DNA of 34,763 bases. It comes from an uncultured Gammaproteobacteria bacterium (GTDB lineage Bacteria; Pseudomonadota; Gammaproteobacteria; CAKMZV01). Position 1 is the stretch's first letter. The number at the start of each line of letters is the position of its first letter. Position numbers and translations under genes: made by a program. Below, piece by piece: positions 5,739-30,056 of this stretch. The stretch is taken from contig CAKMZV010000022.1 in assembly GCA_929200535.1 (NCBI GenBank), positions 1-34,763 of the forward strand, written 5' to 3'. The notes under the pieces were generated by a model. The model saw nothing but the letters and a program-made list of their open reading frames with translations, ran no database searches and was not told the DNA's origin.

Positions 5739-7289
5739 TTATAAGGTTGATAAAAATAGACGGTAGGAGGGATTGTTGGTTTCTTCAACGGCAGTTTTAT
5801 CCCAGTTGTTTATGAGAGTTTCAAATTCTTGTTTTTCATTGGGTGGTATTTCTAATCCAACAAGCACCCGTCCGTAGGCGGCTCCGTGGTTGCGGTAGTG
5901 GAATAGGCTAATGTTCCATTGGTGTGAGATGAGGCTAAGAAAGTCTAATAGGGCACCTGGTCTTTCGGGAAAGGTGAAGCGATAAAGACATTCGTTGGTG
6001 GCTTTGGTAGTACGTCCGCCGACCATATGGCGGATATGATTTTTGGAGAGTTCGTCTTGGCTTAAATCAGTAATGGAGTAGTTATTTTTTGCTAATTCAT
6101 CAATGAGGTTTTGTTTATTTTTTTTTGCACTTAAGTGCATCCCAACAAAAATATGGGCAGTATTTTCATCGAAATAGCGGTAGTTAAATTCACTGATGGA
6201 AGTTTTGCCGAGAATACGACAAAATTGTAAAAAACTACCCGGCTTTTCTGGGATGGTAACAGCAAGAAGAATTTCACGGTTTTCTCCTGCTTCTGAACGT
6301 TCAACGACGTGTTGGAGGCGACTAAAATTTAGATTTGCTCCGCTTTGGATGGTTACGAGTTTTTTATTTTTAATGCCATCACGTTGAACTTTTTTCTTTA
6401 GACCAGCTAACGCTAACGATCCTGAAGGTTCGGTAACTGTGCGAGTGGCTTCAAAGGAGTCTTTGATGGCGGCACATATCTCATCTGTGGTGACGGTAAT
6501 AATATCATCAACAACGCCTTTGTGTTGGAGAATATCCCAATTTTTCTTGCCAACTTGTCTTACCGCAACGCCATCGGCAAAAAGTCCTACGTGCTTTAGG
6601 GTAATTCTTTTATTGGCTTCTATGGAGCGTGTAAGGCAGGCGGAATCCTCAGGCTCAACGCCGATGATTTTTATTTCAGGAGCAATTTCTTTGATAAAAG
6701 CCGCTATTCCAGCAATAAGTCCACCGCCACCAACAGGAATAAAAATCATATCGGGGAACCCTTCTTTGCTTTGGCGTAAAATTTCCATTGCTATGGTCCC
6801 TTGTCCAGAGATAACAAGCTCATCATCAAATGGAGGGATTAAAATACGCTGTTCTTGCTCGGCGATTTGTTGTGCTTTAAGAAAAGCCTCTTCAAAGTTA
6901 TCTCCATATGAAATAACAGTTGCTTTAAGGTCTTTGACCGCATCCGATTTGATGCTTGGGGTGGTGATTGGCATCACTATTTTTGCTGAAATATTGAGCT
7001 TTTGGGCGGCAAGAGCAACGCCTTGGGCGTGATTTCCGGCACTGACTGCTACGACTCCCTGTGTGCGTTGTTGTTCGCTTAGGGCGTGAATTTTATTGTA
7101 TGCTCCACGGCATTTAAAGGAGAAGATAGGTTGGGTATCTTCACGTTTAATCAGCACCGTGTTGCCTAACACTCGGCTGAGCTTAGGGGCAAAATCTAAA
7201 GAGGTTTCAACCGCAACATCGTAAACAGATGAGCGTAAAATCTGTTGGACGTAGGCGTTGAAATCAGGTTTTTTTTCGTGTGTTGTCAT
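5739..7289 (-). CDS. ilvA: Threonine ammonia-lyase, biosynthetic (IlvA)
   Basis: This PLP enzyme deaminates threonine to 2-oxobutanoate, the committed step towards isoleucine. At 516 residues it is the long, biosynthetic, allosteric form. The catalytic domain shows the PLP lysine in SFKCRGAYNK (Lys59), the SAGNHAQG loop and the phosphate-binding GGGGLIAGIA. The C-terminal third (from about residue 335) contains two ACT-like regulatory subdomains, each opening with a FPERPG- or IPEKPG-type motif, the site of isoleucine feedback in characterised homologues. The ATG is 10 bases after the acuI stop, so the two are probably cotranscribed. No other branched-chain gene is nearby. Confidence 0.97.
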   Translation of the reverse strand: MTTHEKKPDFNAYVQQILRSSVYDVAVETSLDFAPKLSRVLGNTVLIKREDTQPIFSFKCRGAYNKIHALSEQQRTQGVVAVSAGNHAQGVALAAQKLNISAKIVMPITTPSIKSDAVKDLKATVISYGDNFEEAFLKAQQIAEQEQRILIPPFDDELVISGQGTIAMEILRQSKEGFPDMIFIPVGGGGLIAGIAAFIKEIAPEIKIIGVEPEDSACLTRSIEANKRITLKHVGLFADGVAVRQVGKKNWDILQHKGVVDDIITVTTDEICAAIKDSFEATRTVTEPSGSLALAGLKKKVQRDGIKNKKLVTIQSGANLNFSRLQHVVERSEAGENREILLAVTIPEKPGSFLQFCRILGKTSISEFNYRYFDENTAHIFVGMHLSAKKNKQNLIDELAKNNYSITDLSQDELSKNHIRHMVGGRTTKATNECLYRFTFPERPGALLDFLSLISHQWNISLFHYRNHGAAYGRVLVGLEIPPNEKQEFETLINNWDKTAVEETNNPSYRLFLSTL

Positions 7290-7299
7290 TAGCTAAGGG

Positions 7300-8289
7300 T
7301 TAGAGTTTAACGGTAACTCTACCCTGGATTTCTCCTTGTAGAATTTGCGTGCAGGTATTAGCAATTTCTGTTAGAGAGATATTGGAATGGTGGATGAGTT
7401 TGTATTGTGCTTCGGTGATGTTTTTTCCTATGAGTTGCCAAATGGCTGCTCTTTGTTTGGTCGGATACATTACCGAATCAATCCCGCGTAAGGAGACTCC
7501 ACGCAGGATAAATGGCATTACGGTTGTGGAGAGTTTAAATCCACCAGCAAGCCCACAGGCAGCAATAACTCCTCCGTAATTCATTTCGGCAAGCATTCTT
7601 GATAATACCTTATTGCCTACGGTATCAATTCCAGCTGCCCAGCGACTTTTCTCTAAGGGGCGTGAATCAGCACTGCCATCTTCACGAGAAATAATTTTTT
7701 TTGCACCGAGTTGGGTGAGATAATCTTGTGAGCTTGATCGGCTGATTGCATAAACCGAGTATCCCATATTAGCAAGGAGGGCAACGGCAAAACTACCAAC
7801 ACCACCAGAGGCACCGCTAATAATAATATCGCCATCTTCTGGTTTAACACCAGCATCGAGAATTTCTTGTACGCATAGCCCAGCGGTAAATCCAGCCGTG
7901 CCTATGATCATTGATTGTTGTGCACTGATGAGTTCGGCAGGTAATGGCACTAACCATTTTGCTTTGACTTGTGCGTATTCGGCGTAGCCTCCCCAGTGTC
8001 TTTCACCAACTCCCCAGCCAGTGAGGATAACTTGGTCGCCGGTTTGCCAATTTTCATCACTGCTGGTAATAACTTCACCAACAAAGTCTATGCCTGTCAC
8101 AAATGGGAATTGGTTAACAATTTTCCCAGTGCCAGTAACCGCCAAGGCATCTTTATAGTTTATGCCAGAATAGTTCACCTTGACTAATACTTCCCCCTCA
8201 GGTAAATCAGATTGGTTAATGGTTTTAACATTGGCTTGGGTTTTTTCATCTACTTGATTTAAGAGTAGGGCGTTAAAGGTTGTATCCAT
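7300..8289 (-). CDS. acuI: Acrylyl-CoA reductase family oxidoreductase (AcuI/YhdH)
   Basis: This medium-chain dehydrogenase/reductase uses NADPH to reduce acrylyl-CoA-type enoyl thioesters in characterised homologues. The 329 residues match the family length. The N-terminal GroES-like domain contains YSGINYKDALAVTG and GIDFVGEV; the Rossmann domain has the ASGGVGSFAVALL nucleotide-binding loop; no structural zinc cysteines are seen, which fits the quinone-reductase-like branch. A sigma70-like promoter lies about 77 bases upstream, and ilvA follows after 10 bases. The metabolic link to IlvA (propionyl-CoA side products of 2-oxobutanoate) is inference. Substrate in this organism is not proven by sequence. 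Confidence 0.93.
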   Translation of the reverse strand: MDTTFNALLLNQVDEKTQANVKTINQSDLPEGEVLVKVNYSGINYKDALAVTGTGKIVNQFPFVTGIDFVGEVITSSDENWQTGDQVILTGWGVGERHWGGYAEYAQVKAKWLVPLPAELISAQQSMIIGTAGFTAGLCVQEILDAGVKPEDGDIIISGASGGVGSFAVALLANMGYSVYAISRSSSQDYLTQLGAKKIISREDGSADSRPLEKSRWAAGIDTVGNKVLSRMLAEMNYGGVIAACGLAGGFKLSTTVMPFILRGVSLRGIDSVMYPTKQRAAIWQLIGKNITEAQYKLIHHSNISLTEIANTCTQILQGEIQGRVTVKL

Positions 8290-8365
8290 ATTGGTGTATT
8301 TTTACGAAAAATTAAAAAGTGGTTTAATTTATGTGTGGTAGAGATGACCACCATTAAACACACAA

Positions 8366-8394
8366 ATTATACATTGTTTTTGTTTTATGGTAAA
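8366..8394 (-). promoter_or_regulatory. Candidate acuI-ilvA promoter
   Basis: On the minus strand, TTTACC (8389-8394) and a perfect TATAAT (8366-8371) are separated by 17 bases. The ATG of acuI lies 77 bases downstream. The good spacing and perfect -10 make this one of the better promoter calls in the window. Confidence 0.5.
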
Positions 8395-8441
8395 TGTTTT
8401 TGTGGTACAATTACTCATTACCTTGCTTTATTAGGGAGTTA

Positions 8442-8471
8442 TTGATAGGGGCATATTAAGGCTCTTATTTA
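8442..8471 (+). promoter_or_regulatory. Candidate promoter for tRNA-Trp and secE block
   Basis: TTGATA (8442-8447) and TATTTA (8466-8471) are separated by 18 bases, putting the start of transcription near 8478 and giving a leader of about 37 bases before the tRNA. The -10 is imperfect. A farther TACAAT at 8406-8411 is an alternative. Confidence 0.4.
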
Positions 8472-8514
8472 AATAAATTTACTGTAGGCAGATATAGGCA
8501 GAATGGTTGGTTTT

Positions 8515-8591
8515 AGGGGTGTAGCTCCAATTGGTAGAGCAGCGGATTCCAAATCCGCGTGTTGGGGGTTCGAATCCCTCCATCCCTGCCA
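8515..8591 (+). tRNA. tRNA-Trp (anticodon CCA)
   Basis: All four arms can be drawn. The acceptor AGGGGTG pairs with CATCCCT, the D arm is GCTC/GAGC, the anticodon stem is GCGGA/TCCGC with loop TTCCAAA (anticodon CCA at 8549-8551), and the T arm is GGGGG/CCCTC with loop TTCGAAT. The discriminator is G, and the 3' CCA is encoded. This tRNA sits upstream of secE, as in many Gammaproteobacteria. Between it and secE (8592-8793) I see only AT-rich leader with a small TACTC/GAGTA hairpin at 8605-8620. Confidence 0.98.
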
Positions 8592-8793
8592 TGAAAGTGT
8601 TTTTTACTCGATAGTGAGTATTGTGTAAAACGAAGCTTTAGGTAAGCACGGTTACGGGAGGAAGTCTTTATTTTATTCATATGAGAATGATGTAAATAGG
8701 TGCTTTTAGTGCATCTTTTGAGTTGGTCTTATGGGAAATGAATAAGTTAAAGTATTTTTTAAATAAAAGGTTTTATAAGTTCAAAATTTATCA

Positions 8794-9174
8794 ATGAGTC
8801 AAGATAATTCGTCCGCTGAGTCTTCTGTTAAAAATAACAAATATTATGTAATGCTCTCCTTGCTTGTTATGGGGGCGGGTATTGTGCTTTATTATGCAAC
8901 TGAACATTCGTTTTCGTCTATTTGGCGGATTCTTGGTTTGGTTGGTGTTGGAGTTATTTCGCTTGTCATTATTTACCTATCAGAACTTGGTAAGCGTGCC
9001 CTAAATTTTATCGGCGGGGCTCGTACTGAAGTTCTTAAAGTGATTTGGCCGACACGTCAAGAAACAATTCAAATGTCTTTGATTGTTATTGTGGCAGTTT
9101 TTGTGATTGGGTTGTTTTTGTGGTTAGTGGATACTTTATTTTTATGGTTGGTTGAGTATTTGATCAACTTATAG
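8794..9174 (+). CDS. secE: Preprotein translocase subunit SecE
   Basis: SecE clamps the SecY channel in the inner membrane and is essential for Sec-dependent export. The 126-residue protein has the long, three-helix proteobacterial form: hydrophobic segments at about residues 17-36, 41-63 and 94-124. The conserved amphipathic stretch EVLKVIWPTRQET at about 80-92 immediately precedes the last helix. The ATG start gives a short polar, Ser/Asn-rich N-terminus. nusG follows after 54 bases, the usual arrangement, and tRNA-Trp precedes it. Confidence 0.96.
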   Translation: MSQDNSSAESSVKNNKYYVMLSLLVMGAGIVLYYATEHSFSSIWRILGLVGVGVISLVIIYLSELGKRALNFIGGARTEVLKVIWPTRQETIQMSLIVIVAVFVIGLFLWLVDTLFLWLVEYLINL

Positions 9175-24747: not shown

Positions 24748-26040
24748 ATGATTAATAGATATTTGAACAATATGTTGAAATTTTATCGATTTTTCCTAAC
24801 ATTTTTCTTGCTGATGAGCTATGGGCAAGCGGTTAATGCACTTACTATTAATTTAAAAATTAATGATACTTTTGCTAAAGCAAATATTTTTGAAAGTGCG
24901 GGTAACGAGCTACTACTATGGTTCCCCTCAGAATATGGCAATCAAGGGGAGTATCGCAATATAGCGAAAAAAATTAGTCAATTTGGTGTAGAAGTTTGGA
25001 TTATTGATATGTTTGCTATGAATTATTTATCCCCTTCGCCAAATTCAATCAGGCAGATTTCTGAATTTCAAATTAGTGAAGTCATTAATCAAGTGATACG
25101 ATATTCATCCAAACGAGTGTGGCTATTTAGTAGTGAAAGAGGGGCACAATTAGCCCTTAGAGGCTTATACGAATGGCAGAAAAAAAATCCTGAGAACAAT
25201 GATGTGTTAGGAGGTGCAGTGTTACTCAATCCAAATTTATTTTATGGCTTTCCACCAACCGGTTTAAATCCTGATTTTTTACCAATCACCTCCGTGATAA
25301 ATAAGCCTGTTGCTATTTTACAATCACGTTTATCAAAAAAATATTATTATATTGATGAACTTGTTTCCCAGTTAAAAACAGGAGGAGCTAAAGTTAAAAT
25401 GCAGATTATTCCCAAAGTAAGAGAAAGATTTCATTTTAGGAGATACTCCGAAGATATAGAAGATTTAACTCGCAAAAAACATCTTCATTCTTTGATATTA
25501 CGTGGAATTAGAGATATTACTCCATTGGCTAAGAATATTAAGCCAAACTTGAACTTACCAAGAGTAAAGGCACTTCCTAACATAGGAATTCCTCTTGACT
25601 TGGTTCCTCTTGCAAACCCTAAAAAACTTGATGATTTTGTGCTTAGAGACAGTAAGCATAAATTTTGGGATACGAGCAAACTGCGCGGGAATGTACTTTT
25701 ACTCTCTTTCTGGCCTGAGTGGTGCAACTCTTGCCGATACCAATTAAAAAAACTACAAGAGTTTAAGAATCTGACTAAAAGCAATGACTTTCAATTGCTC
25801 TCTATCTATTTTGATGGAACTCGCGGCGGTATTAAAAAATTAATTAAGCGATATAAAACCACTTTTCCAATTTTGCGTGGCAATATTGAATTGATTAAAC
25901 AATTGAATCTAAGAGAGTTTCCAAGTACATTGATTATTGATAAAAAAGGAAAAATTCGTTATGCAATGTATGGCAGTGTTAGAAGCTGGAATGCCGATAA
26001 TTTTAAGAAAATTATCAGTAACTTACAAAGAGAGAAGTAG
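24748..26040 (+). CDS. Secreted hydrolase-like / thioredoxin fusion protein
   Basis: The 430-residue protein has a signal peptide (hydrophobic RFFLTFFLLMSYGQAVNA, likely cut after Ala31), so it should be periplasmic; the in-frame ATG at 24772 gives a shorter, more normal signal. Residues about 45-235 resemble an alpha/beta-hydrolase: a beta-loop WFPSEYG, VEVWIIDMF, and RVWLFSSERGAQLAL at the nucleophile elbow. There the catalytic Ser would be Glu130, so this part looks inactive. From about 290 a TlpA/ResA-type thioredoxin domain follows, with FWPEWCNSC (Cys326, Cys329) and a cis-Pro in REFPSTLII. I infer a periplasmic disulfide reductase with a substrate-binding N-terminal domain. Confidence 0.75.
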   Translation: MINRYLNNMLKFYRFFLTFFLLMSYGQAVNALTINLKINDTFAKANIFESAGNELLLWFPSEYGNQGEYRNIAKKISQFGVEVWIIDMFAMNYLSPSPNSIRQISEFQISEVINQVIRYSSKRVWLFSSERGAQLALRGLYEWQKKNPENNDVLGGAVLLNPNLFYGFPPTGLNPDFLPITSVINKPVAILQSRLSKKYYYIDELVSQLKTGGAKVKMQIIPKVRERFHFRRYSEDIEDLTRKKHLHSLILRGIRDITPLAKNIKPNLNLPRVKALPNIGIPLDLVPLANPKKLDDFVLRDSKHKFWDTSKLRGNVLLLSFWPEWCNSCRYQLKKLQEFKNLTKSNDFQLLSIYFDGTRGGIKKLIKRYKTTFPILRGNIELIKQLNLREFPSTLIIDKKGKIRYAMYGSVRSWNADNFKKIISNLQREK

Positions 26041-26055
26041 AGTAACCTAAATATT

Positions 26056-26076
26056 GAGACCTTTACAAAAGGTCTC
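26056..26076. terminator. Bidirectional hairpin made from fused GAGACC ends
   Basis: GAGACCTTT and AAAGGTCTC form a perfect 9-bp stem with an ACA loop. It sits 15 bases after the thioredoxin-fusion stop and 3 bases beyond the stop of the 57-aa minus-strand ORF, between two convergent genes. T-rich sequence on the right is short. The arms are the same as the ends of the repeat elements, so it may be a minimal remnant reused as a terminator. Confidence 0.55.
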
Positions 26077-26079
26077 ATA

Positions 26080-26253
26080 TTATTTCGGCGGTATATTTTT
26101 TTGCAATTGTTGATTTTTTTCTTGGAAAAAAGCGTGTATTTTTGAGAGATCATCAAGATTTTCACAAGATAGGCGATAAGAACTTAATAGTTTTTCTCTA
26201 ATTTCTTTTTGTTGAATAACGCTTTTTGTTGAAGGTGGTCTCTTGGTTTTCAT
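26080..26253 (-). CDS. Small 57-aa protein paired with the PIN protein
   Basis: This short ORF starts with ATG at 26253 and encodes 57 residues beginning MKTKRPPSTKSVIQQKEIRE. It is polar, basic and Gln/Lys-rich, and predicted mostly helical. It begins 13 bases after the PIN gene stop on the same strand, so the two are probably cotranscribed. The pattern of an IREKL...-type helix followed by a short polar helix resembles small partners found beside PIN proteins of this type, which makes an antitoxin role attractive but unproven. It ends 3 bases from the hairpin at 26056-26076. No clear SD precedes it. Confidence 0.5.
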   Translation of the reverse strand: MKTKRPPSTKSVIQQKEIREKLLSSYRLSCENLDDLSKIHAFFQEKNQQLQKNIPPK

Positions 26254-26266
26254 TGTTTTTATAAAC

Positions 26267-26737
26267 TTAGAATATCATTGCGGGTGTGCAAATTTCTATA
26301 TGTGAATAACCAAGAAGTTTATTAATTCCATTAATTTTTTTGATAGTATCGAGATTTGCGAGTCCTTGATAGTCCCAACTGATAATGTAATCACATCTGT
26401 TTGATGAAACAACTCCAATATTCATTGCTGTTAGAAAATCTTTTGGTGCTACGATGCCAGATTCAACATAAGTTTTTGCAAGTTTGAATACCTCGTCTTT
26501 TATGTCAAATATAACGAGGTTAGGAAGTGATTTTTGCCAGTATTTTTGTGAAATATCAGCGACAGGTGAAACTGCGGCTTCTATTTCCTGCCAAGTAATG
26601 CTAGAAACAGCACCAATAAAATATTCTTCGAATAATTTGGAAAAAAAATACCGACTATACCTTTTTGTTTCCTCCTCTTTTACAGCAAAAAACACATTGC
26701 TATCAATATAATAGGTTGGGACAGATTGGTGATTCAT
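26267..26737 (-). CDS. PIN-domain protein, probable VapC-like toxin
   Basis: I start at the ATG at 26737 (156 residues); a TTG just before it is possible. The N-terminal YYIDSNVFFAV motif carries the first acidic residue (Asp12), later acidic residues are in SSITWQEIEAAV and APKDFLTAM, and DYIISWDYQGLAN supplies the last. The C-terminus INKLLGYSHIEICTPAMIF is typical of a PIN subfamily found in small toxin-antitoxin pairs. PIN domains are Mg-dependent ribonucleases; the target is unknown. It is divergent from purM across a 63-base gap in which -10-like boxes of both strands overlap (26771-26778), and is followed by a 57-aa ORF. An island of two minus-strand genes among plus-strand genes suggests insertion. 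Confidence 0.75.
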   Translation of the reverse strand: MNHQSVPTYYIDSNVFFAVKEEETKRYSRYFFSKLFEEYFIGAVSSITWQEIEAAVSPVADISQKYWQKSLPNLVIFDIKDEVFKLAKTYVESGIVAPKDFLTAMNIGVVSSNRCDYIISWDYQGLANLDTIKKINGINKLLGYSHIEICTPAMIF

Positions 26738-26800
26738 CAATTGTTATAAATTAAATGTATTTTTAAGATAATTATACTATCTAAAATAATTAAGAATTTT

Positions 26801-28117
26801 ATGAAAATTATAATATTAGGTTCTGGTCAAGCAGAATATGAAATAGCCCAACTTGCTAATCAAAAGTTATTTATTGAAGCTATTTTTGCAGTACCTGGGA
26901 ATGCAGACACAGCAAGATTAAAAAAAGTTCGCAATGTGGCAATTAGTATGCACGACAACACCAATATACAACAATTTATGGAAGATGAAAAAATTCATCT
27001 TTGTATTACTGATGCGGCTTCAAGCAAAGCCCTTTTTGAGCAAGAGGGTGAGAGTGAGGCAGCTATTCCGCCTTCATCTTTATCACCATCGGATGATAAT
27101 TCCATAAGCTATGCCCAAAGCGGTGTCAGTATTGATGAGGGTAACTCCTTTGTGGATCGCATCAAACCTTTAGTCAAAAGTACGTATAGAAAAGAGGCAT
27201 TAAGCTCCATCGGTGGTTTTAGCGGTGCCTTTAAAATACCCAAAACCTACAAAGACCCCCTACTTATTGCCGCTACTGATGGCGTAGGTACCAAGCTAAA
27301 AATTGCCATTGAATTACAACAACATCATAGTATCGGTATTGATTTAGTGGCTATGTGTGTCAATGATCTTATTGTATGCGGTGCTGAACCATTGTTTTTT
27401 TTGGACTATTATGCGACGGCAAAATTAGATAGCAATATTGCCACTGAGGTTATTGCAGGGATATGTGAAGGCTGCAAACTCGCAGGTTGCTCTTTAATTG
27501 GTGGTGAAACGGCAGAAATGCCAGGAATGTACCAAGCTAATGACTATGATCTTGCTGGTTTTAGTGTTGGGGTAGTTGAGAATAATGAAGTGCTTGATGG
27601 CTCAAATATTAATGTAGGCGATTGCGTTCTTGCTTTACCCTCAAGTGGCATTCATTCTAATGGTTATTCGTTGGTACGTGCTGTTTTGGAGCATGCAAAA
27701 CCTTCTTTACAACAAGCTATTGGTGAAAAAACCTTAGCACAATGGTTACTAACGCCAACCACCATTTATGTTAAAGACATTCTTGATTTGAAAAAAAATA
27801 TACCAATAAAAGGATTAGCGCATATTACGGGTGGTGGTTTGGTTGAAAATATACCACGAGTGCTACCGGCGAATGTTGCTGTACAAATTAATTCAAATAG
27901 CTGGCAAGTTCCCGCAATATTTCAATGGTTACAACAACAAGGCAATATTGAAGAGCAAGAAATGTGGCGGGTATTTAATATGGGCATTGGTATGGTGATA
28001 ATTCTTTCTGCTGAATATCAACAACAAGCACTACAGCAGCTAAAGGAATGTGGAGCTTTTGTGATTGGTAATGTAATTGAAAAGGACAATCTATCTGAGC
28101 AATGTATCATTAGTTAG
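26801..28117 (+). CDS. purM: Phosphoribosylformylglycinamidine cyclo-ligase with PurD-like N-terminal extension
   Basis: PurM closes the imidazole ring to make aminoimidazole ribotide in purine synthesis. Residues 101-438 are a full PurM: SISYAQSGVSIDEGN, TDGVGTKLKIA, GIDLVAMCVNDL, GGETAEMPGMY, HSNGYSLVR, ITGGGLVENIPRVLP. Residues 1 to about 80 are not PurM; they resemble the N-terminal domain of PurD: MKIIILGSG, FAVPGNADTA, VRNVAISMHD, IHLCITD. The PurD phosphate loop GGREHA is altered to GQAEYE and the domain is truncated, followed by a Ser/Pro/Glu linker. The only ATGs are in the extension, none near the PurM start, so the fusion is probably made. purN follows after two bases. Confidence 0.93.
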   Translation: MKIIILGSGQAEYEIAQLANQKLFIEAIFAVPGNADTARLKKVRNVAISMHDNTNIQQFMEDEKIHLCITDAASSKALFEQEGESEAAIPPSSLSPSDDNSISYAQSGVSIDEGNSFVDRIKPLVKSTYRKEALSSIGGFSGAFKIPKTYKDPLLIAATDGVGTKLKIAIELQQHHSIGIDLVAMCVNDLIVCGAEPLFFLDYYATAKLDSNIATEVIAGICEGCKLAGCSLIGGETAEMPGMYQANDYDLAGFSVGVVENNEVLDGSNINVGDCVLALPSSGIHSNGYSLVRAVLEHAKPSLQQAIGEKTLAQWLLTPTTIYVKDILDLKKNIPIKGLAHITGGGLVENIPRVLPANVAVQINSNSWQVPAIFQWLQQQGNIEEQEMWRVFNMGIGMVIILSAEYQQQALQQLKECGAFVIGNVIEKDNLSEQCIIS

Positions 28118-28119
28118 AA

Positions 28120-28707
28120 ATGGACAGAGCATTGAAAATAGCCATCCTTATTTCAGGTAGGGGGAGCAATATGGCTGCACTCATTGAGAACTTAAAAATG
28201 CACCCTAAGGTGAAATTTTGCTGTGTTGTTAGTGATAACTCTCAAGCATTAGGTATTCCAAAGGCTAAAAAAATGCAAATACCTACCTGTGTTATTGATG
28301 GGAATTTATGTAGCAATCAATATGTATTTGAAGAAAAATTAGATACCTATTTACAAACCCACCAACCAAATTTAATTTTATTGGCTGGGTTTATGCGTTT
28401 ACTTTCAGCAAAGTTCGTGGCAAAATATAAAGGGAAGATTTTAAACATTCATCCCTCTTTATTGCCTAAGTACCCTGGGTTAAACACACATCAGCGGGCT
28501 TTAGAAAATAATGATAAAGAAGTTGGTGCAACTGTGCACTGGGTAGATGAGAAAATGGATAATGGAGAAATTATGGCTCAGTGTCGTATTAAAGTAAAAC
28601 CGCAAGATACAGCACAAACACTATCTCAGCGATTATTACCCTATGAGCACCAACTGTATATTGATTGCGTAAGGAAACTATTGAATCAAATCAGGGATAC
28701 CGTATAA
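28120..28707 (+). CDS. purN: Phosphoribosylglycinamide formyltransferase PurN
   Basis: PurN uses 10-formyl-tetrahydrofolate to formylate GAR, the third purine step. The 195 residues show the phosphate loop ISGRGSN (12-17), the catalytic set Asn109 and His111 in LNIHPSLLP, and Asp147 in HWVDEKMDNG. Length is slightly short but normal. The ATG is two bases after the purM stop, so translation is coupled. A 35-base gap separates it from aroA. Confidence 0.97.
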   Translation: MDRALKIAILISGRGSNMAALIENLKMHPKVKFCCVVSDNSQALGIPKAKKMQIPTCVIDGNLCSNQYVFEEKLDTYLQTHQPNLILLAGFMRLLSAKFVAKYKGKILNIHPSLLPKYPGLNTHQRALENNDKEVGATVHWVDEKMDNGEIMAQCRIKVKPQDTAQTLSQRLLPYEHQLYIDCVRKLLNQIRDTV

Positions 28708-28742
28708 TTTGACTTATTGAACTATGAGAATTTAAAAAAATA

Positions 28743-30056
28743 ATGAGTAAACATTTCGTTATTGAATCTGGTGGGAAATTAAGAGGGGAGATTAAGATTC
28801 CTGGAGATAAGTCCATCTCCCATCGTGCCATAATGCTTGCCTCTATAGCACAAGGCAATAGCCAAATAAACGGCTTATTGCGTAGTGGGGATGTGTTATG
28901 CACTTTAGCGGCTATGCGGGCAATAGGCGTGCATATTGAAGAAGGCACTGACGGTGCACTCTTAGTGCACGGAACTCAAAGTTACAGAACCCCTTTAGAG
29001 CCTATTTATGTAGGTAATTCAGGGACGGCAATGCGTTTATTAGTTGGTCTCTTTGCAGGTTTAAATATCTCTGCTAAATTCTATGGAGATGAATCATTAT
29101 CCACTCGCCCAATGAAGCGAGTTACGGACCCTCTTTGCAGTATGGGATTTATAGTCAAGTCCTCAGAGGGTACAGCACCTTTAATTATCGAATCTCAAAA
29201 TCAAATAGAAGACCTAAATGATTTCAATTACTCGATGCCAATTTCAAGTGCACAAGTAAAGTCGTGTATATTATTGGCATCTCTATTTTCTCAGACACGC
29301 ACAACAATTAGTGAGCCCTTTAAGAGTCGTAACCACACTGAATTGATGTTCAAAGATTTTGGTGCAGACATACGTGTCAAAGGCAATGAAGTGACCTTAG
29401 TCGGAGGGAAAAAATTATTAGCACACGATGTGCAAGTACCCTCGGATATTTCATCAGCCTCTTTTTTTATGGTTGCAGCCAGCATTATTCCTGATTCTGA
29501 TATTACGATGAAACGCGTGGGCATCAACTCAACTCGTGATGGCATTATACATTTACTCAAAAAAATGGGTGCTGATATTTCAATTGAAAATAAAAGGCAT
29601 TGTGGCAGTGAAATAGTAGCTGATATTCGAGTACGTTCTGCACCATTAAATGGCATTATGATTGAGAATCAATATATTTCTTTGGCTATTGATGAATTTC
29701 CTATTTTATTTGTTGCAGCAGCTTGTGCCAAAGGGAAAACAAAATTGCGTAATGCCTCTGAGCTACGTACAAAAGAAAGCGACCGCATTGCGATTATGGC
29801 ACAAGCTTTACAGAAAATGAACATTAAGACCACCGAATATGAAGATGGAATTGACATTATAGGAGGGACATTAAAACCAACCGATCAAATCTTAGATAGT
29901 CATAATGATCACCGCATTGCTATGTCTCTATCTGTAGCGGCAATGGCAATGAAATCAGGTAGTCTAAAGTTAAGCGGTGTTGAAACGGTGGCATCATCTT
30001 TCCCTAATTTTCACACTAATATGCATAATGCTGGGATGAAAATCACACTTCAATGA
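28743..30056 (+). CDS. aroA: 3-phosphoshikimate 1-carboxyvinyltransferase, class II (AroA)
   Basis: AroA joins shikimate-3-phosphate and phosphoenolpyruvate to give EPSP, the penultimate step before chorismate. The 437 residues have the two-domain inside-out barrel. Four motifs mark class II rather than the usual gammaproteobacterial class I: GDKSISHR at 21-28, SAQVK at 167-171, RNHTE at about 195-199, and NSTR at about 260. RTKESDRIA lies further on. Class II enzymes are known to be less sensitive to glyphosate; here that is inference. The last four bases overlap cmk (ATGA). Confidence 0.96.
   Translation: MSKHFVIESGGKLRGEIKIPGDKSISHRAIMLASIAQGNSQINGLLRSGDVLCTLAAMRAIGVHIEEGTDGALLVHGTQSYRTPLEPIYVGNSGTAMRLLVGLFAGLNISAKFYGDESLSTRPMKRVTDPLCSMGFIVKSSEGTAPLIIESQNQIEDLNDFNYSMPISSAQVKSCILLASLFSQTRTTISEPFKSRNHTELMFKDFGADIRVKGNEVTLVGGKKLLAHDVQVPSDISSASFFMVAASIIPDSDITMKRVGINSTRDGIIHLLKKMGADISIENKRHCGSEIVADIRVRSAPLNGIMIENQYISLAIDEFPILFVAAACAKGKTKLRNASELRTKESDRIAIMAQALQKMNIKTTEYEDGIDIIGGTLKPTDQILDSHNDHRIAMSLSVAAMAMKSGSLKLSGVETVASSFPNFHTNMHNAGMKITLQ

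Follow-up and report, generated by a model that had tools for sequence, protein, structure and literature searches.

The window analysed here, a stretch of 34,763 nucleotides from an uncultured gammaproteobacterium, contains a single open reading frame in which a PurD-like front, hereafter the stub, is joined to purM (Table 1). purN follows as a gene of its own, its ATG at 28120 lying two bases past the purM stop. A sequence-only reading of this DNA had described this arrangement; its account of the sequence proved accurate, and the observation is confirmed. An Rfam search of positions 26000-28800 returned no match, and Shine-Dalgarno-like motifs are very few before the start codons of most genes in the window. 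Divergent from purM lies an ORF of 157 aa (26267-26740, minus strand) that looks PIN/VapC-like by eye and has no Pfam match at 1e-3; it and a small ORF lying upstream on that side may form a toxin-antitoxin pair beside the fusion point.

Table 1. Features of the fusion ORF and the adjoining purN (positions in the window)
Feature	Position	Strand	Length	Basis
Fusion ORF, purM with PurD-like front	26801-28117	+	438 aa	
ATG, most likely translation start of the fusion and hence of PurM	26801..26803	+		Start-codon scan
GARS_N (PurD N-domain) fragment, loop GGREH -> GQAEY	26801..27010	+	residues 1-70	PF02844, 38.9 bits; gamma PurD HMM; predicted fold
Linker without detectable PurD homology	27011..27100	+	residues 71-100	Shuffle test; HMM; six-frame search; low pLDDT
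Complete PurM (phosphoribosylformylglycinamidine cyclo-ligase) domain and stop	27101..28117	+		TIGR00878, 452.6 bits
purN, GAR formyltransferase, separate ORF	28120..28707	+		PF00551, 7.7e-56

Several searches tie the stub to PurD. Scanned within residues 1-106, residues 1-70 match the Pfam family GARS_N (PF02844) at 38.9 bits (1.6e-9; cut-off 29.5 bits), a score that falls to 35.7 bits when the whole 438-aa protein is scanned; positions 1-68 of the 100 in the model are aligned, giving a match that is over the cut-off and truncated. Sequence matches in the PDB include E. coli PurD (1GSO) and the GARS part of human GART (2QK4), each at 1e-8, and a home-made HMM of gammaproteobacterial PurDs scores the stub at 51 bits, with the match ending at residue 70. 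The likeness to the PurD N-domain proposed for residues 1-80 thus holds as homology and is shorter than proposed: the match stops sharply at residue 70, and the domain is indeed cut short ahead of the linker, its second half missing. The altered phosphate loop was likewise borne out, GGREHA being invariant in 37 native PurDs and reading GQAEYE in the stub. The strands and the PGNxDTA / N45 positions are kept, and the alignment to PurD runs for 70 residues without indels. Over the same columns, the stub shares a mean identity of 34% with native PurDs, which share 60% among themselves (lowest pair 43%). A domain search found neither the GARS_A (ATP-grasp) nor the GARS_C (C-terminal) domain in the fusion ORF, and the fusion protein scores 33 bits against the PurD model TIGR00877, for which the cut-off is 288. 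Compared with GAR synthetase (TIGR00877; GARS_N, GARS_A, GARS_C), the fusion is homologous to gamma-type PurD over that enzyme's first 70 residues but has neither the remainder of the N domain, nor the ATP-grasp or C domain, nor the GGREH loop; because the latter two domains are absent and the loop reads GQAEY, the stub cannot be a GAR synthetase.

The losses in the stub were compared with a simulation of neutral drift that started from native PurDs and ran, in the codon usage of the host, until mean identity had fallen to that of the stub. Among the invariant non-hydrophobic columns, 11 of 20 are lost and 9 kept, and the simulation keeps 9.5 +/- 1.6; 14 of the 17 core hydrophobics are kept (simulation 14.0 +/- 1.5). 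These losses fit neutral drift, and selection on the ligand site or the core was not seen in this test of modest power. The GC3 of the stub, 0.19 against about 0.29 in neighbouring genes (over 70 codons only), is compatible with drifting DNA. When PurD relatives were supplied, AlphaFold gave residues 1-70 the fold of a PurD N-domain (pLDDT 94-98; rmsd to 1GSO 1.6), whereas with PurM rows only, a model that holds no alignment for the stub part, the stub was unfolded (pLDDT 34-47). Neither prediction is a sign of function.

The linker carries no PurD signal that we could detect. Across residues 70-103, 87% of shuffles score equally well and the HMM is also negative, and a six-frame search of DNA 27000-27110 against PurDs gave nothing significant. 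The final ~12 linker residues (PPSSLSPSDDNS) recall the N-tails of ordinary PurMs, which are short and S/P/D-rich, and the linker is predicted with low pLDDT (52-58). An internal deletion within PurD, suggested by a resemblance of residues 71-90 (SKALFEQ...AIP) to a later part of PurD (SKAF...IPTA), was ruled out by shuffles and the HMM. A search for a repeat or a moved gene as the source yielded one candidate, a stretch of 22 bp at 27016-27037 that differs at one position from part of this genome's apaH (C2:89346) and lies in another frame; we take it as a probable chance match, the alternative being a tiny templated insert. A terminator-like hairpin at 27016 was dismissed, the region folding no better than shuffles.

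Downstream of the linker, residues 102-427 match the PurM model TIGR00878 at 452.6 bits (cut-off 236.35), and every invariant PurM column is intact in an alignment of 22 sequences (our own and 21 relatives). Because these conserved positions are intact, we infer that the PurM part works normally. Like a bacterial PurM (TIGR00878 / AIRS and AIRS_C), the protein is complete over residues 101-438, but it has about 100 extra N-terminal residues. Inspected relatives start their PurM about 4-18 residues ahead of the conserved Tyr; in our ORF, the nearest start is 44 residues from it. In-frame canonical starts occur at residues 1, 46, 50 and 60 (ATG 26801, GTG 26936, ATG 26948 and ATG 26978), and a scan for ATG, GTG and TTG found none in the 43 codons preceding the conserved start of PurM. 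Translation from near residue 100, which would speak against a fusion, has no canonical start to use: none lies between M60 and the PurM core, and the next one, GTG 27152 at residue 118, is already inside that core. With no canonical start nearby, PurM can be made only if translation passes through the stub, or at least through its end, unless a rare ATT or ATA codon serves as start; translation of the stub is thus almost certain.

PurM might instead start non-canonically or by re-initiation near residues 89-118 (ATT 27065, ATA 27104 or GTG 27152), the upstream PurD-like frame then being a separate remnant or a leader. By our own reading, G-rich purine stretches precede ATT 27065 and GTG 27152, and PurM would be of normal length with a start near residue 89 or 102. 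However, ATT and ATA are very rare as start codons, and a start at GTG 27152 would remove the highly conserved YxxxGVxIxxGN segment of PurM. The reading frame is open all the way from ATG 26801, and the Shine-Dalgarno signal is generally slight before genes of the window. We regard such a start as improbable.

The genome (1.97 Mb, 100% complete, 0.1% contaminated, a draft of 50 contigs) carries one complete PurD, and a search for a complete purD elsewhere, as the sequence-only reading had proposed, located it on contig C5 beside adk (G000:C5:61.7-63.1 kb; L001:1495-2832). This PurD is genuine, with 315 bits against TIGR00877 and all three domains, and has only about 26-27% identity to common gamma PurD. 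Its only close counterparts across 369 class genomes are the PurDs of G224, G096 and G107 (48-57%), and the four group together in the PurD tree (100/100, branch 2.94), far from the common gamma clade. Against 36 native gamma PurDs the stub reaches 54.2 bits, but against the clade of the C5 PurD only 7.5 bits, which rules it out as a duplicate of the genome's own gene. Judged by these scores and the tree, the stub belongs with the ordinary PurDs of gammaproteobacteria and the C5 PurD with a remote, rare type. A full gamma PurD query (E up to 10) found no further native purD pieces in the genome except a weak match to the ATP-grasp region on contig C25. purD is the neighbour of purH in about half of the gamma loci examined; in this genome, the gene two bases behind purH is an FtsB-like ORF (named by reading the sequence), and no purD is there. 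Additionally, the matched PurD stretch of G096 (L070) contains one in-frame TAG, near its 3' end.

In our class survey, where this genome is the sole member of its order, the fusion protein found matches in 334 of the 369 genomes, its own included. The class is taken as Gammaproteobacteria on the strength of gene content and of the PurD and PurM relatives. None of the matches listed for the 368 other class genomes, a listing of the stronger-scoring PurMs, carries the stub, all of them starting at a query residue of at least 76, and the fusion does not recur among these PurM matches as a family in more than one lineage. G096, G224 and G107, the carriers of the remote-type PurD, have an ordinary PurM without the stub, and phrase searches of the literature found no report of a PurM with a PurD stub. 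The fusion is probably lineage-specific.

The order of PurD part, PurM and PurN recalls animal GART, the GARS-AIRS-GARFT trifunctional protein, and the parallel drawn earlier stands for gene order. It does not extend to a deeper likeness: the fusion is without a functional GARS, PurN is its own ORF and the stub is of the bacterial gamma type, which makes the resemblance superficial. A partial bacterial parallel to GART exists in G058, a 1.4-Mb genome of the class, in which a full-length PurD-PurM fusion (L118:4609-6891) is followed by purN (6902-7489) and purH (7490-8992). As in our fusion, PurD is N-terminal to PurM and purN comes next, but the PurD is complete and of another PurD subclade. 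A profile of the G058 and G091 PurDs scores the stub at only 20 bits, against 54 for common gamma PurD, which disfavours an origin from a G058-like full fusion; the G058 PurD subtype is not an evident source. Since this fusion and a purD-purM-purN string in G091 exist, adjacency of PurD, PurM and PurN does arise in the class. In genomes of family f49 (L074:517-2826, L075, L076), ORFs of ~770 aa between purM and purN fuse a front that reads as PurC-like to a divergent PurD.

We consider it likely that the stub is a relic, namely what is left of the gamma-type purD that the lineage first had, and that this gene was replaced by the remote-type PurD, its 5' end being joined in frame to purM and kept for its start codon. 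PurD function would have passed to the C5 gene through transfer and replacement of the native one, and a deletion or rearrangement would have placed the first 70 codons of native purD in frame with the front of purM, at the cost of the start codon that purM once had; the type and order of these events are our reconstruction. The stub, without a catalytic domain, would then drift as a passenger tail and would survive because PurM needs its start codon, PurM and probably a coupled PurN being translated from the old purD ATG. The in-frame fusion of an N-terminal fragment, the lack of a usable PurM start, the missing catalytic domains, the lost invariants with their drift-like divergence and a complete PurD of another clade elsewhere all argue for a relic. 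The sequence-only reading had suggested a relic of a PurD-PurM fusion; a relic is supported, and a full fusion in this lineage may or may not have preceded it. Two points weigh against a relic: the 70 indel-free residues are more orderly than much old neutral sequence, and native purD is often beside purH in relatives, whereas its 5' end here lies at purM.

The stub might alternatively have been repurposed, a half-Rossmann unit that docks PurM to PurF, PurD or PurN, or that senses a nucleotide or phosphoribosyl compound to regulate PurM. The PurD-like core predicted for residues 1-70 and the retained strands and PGNxDTA / N45 positions are consistent with this, and weak mutual interactions among E. 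coli PurD, PurM, PurN, PurT and PurK (PMC12583656) count for docking. However, the pattern of losses is that of neutral drift, the ligand loop is gone along with the second half of the domain, no other PurM among the survey matches listed has a stub, and the fold disappears from the AlphaFold model that has no PurD rows. We found no positive evidence for the regulatory domain that had been suggested, and think repurposing unlikely. That the stub is kept specifically as a docking or ligand-sensing module that links PurM either with the remote-type PurD or with the supply of purines seems slightly less likely again. That two unrelated loci were joined artificially, in assembly or sequencing, is very improbable. 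The genome is a draft of many contigs and the junction is known from one genome, but this 100% complete, scarcely contaminated assembly has no complete native purD matching the stub, the stub has diverged as a fragment, and chance would have had to place the join in frame and precisely where PurM starts.

In summary, the finding is probably an unusual fossil fusion and, on present evidence, neither a new enzyme nor a GART-like protein. As a relic, it may record a step of enzyme replacement in progress, in which a core-pathway gene, once displaced, left its translation start on another enzyme of the pathway. Such fossils illustrate accidental routes to N-terminal extensions and possibly to multifunctional enzymes, and advise caution in that gene-fusion ('Rosetta stone') signals need not imply functional coupling.
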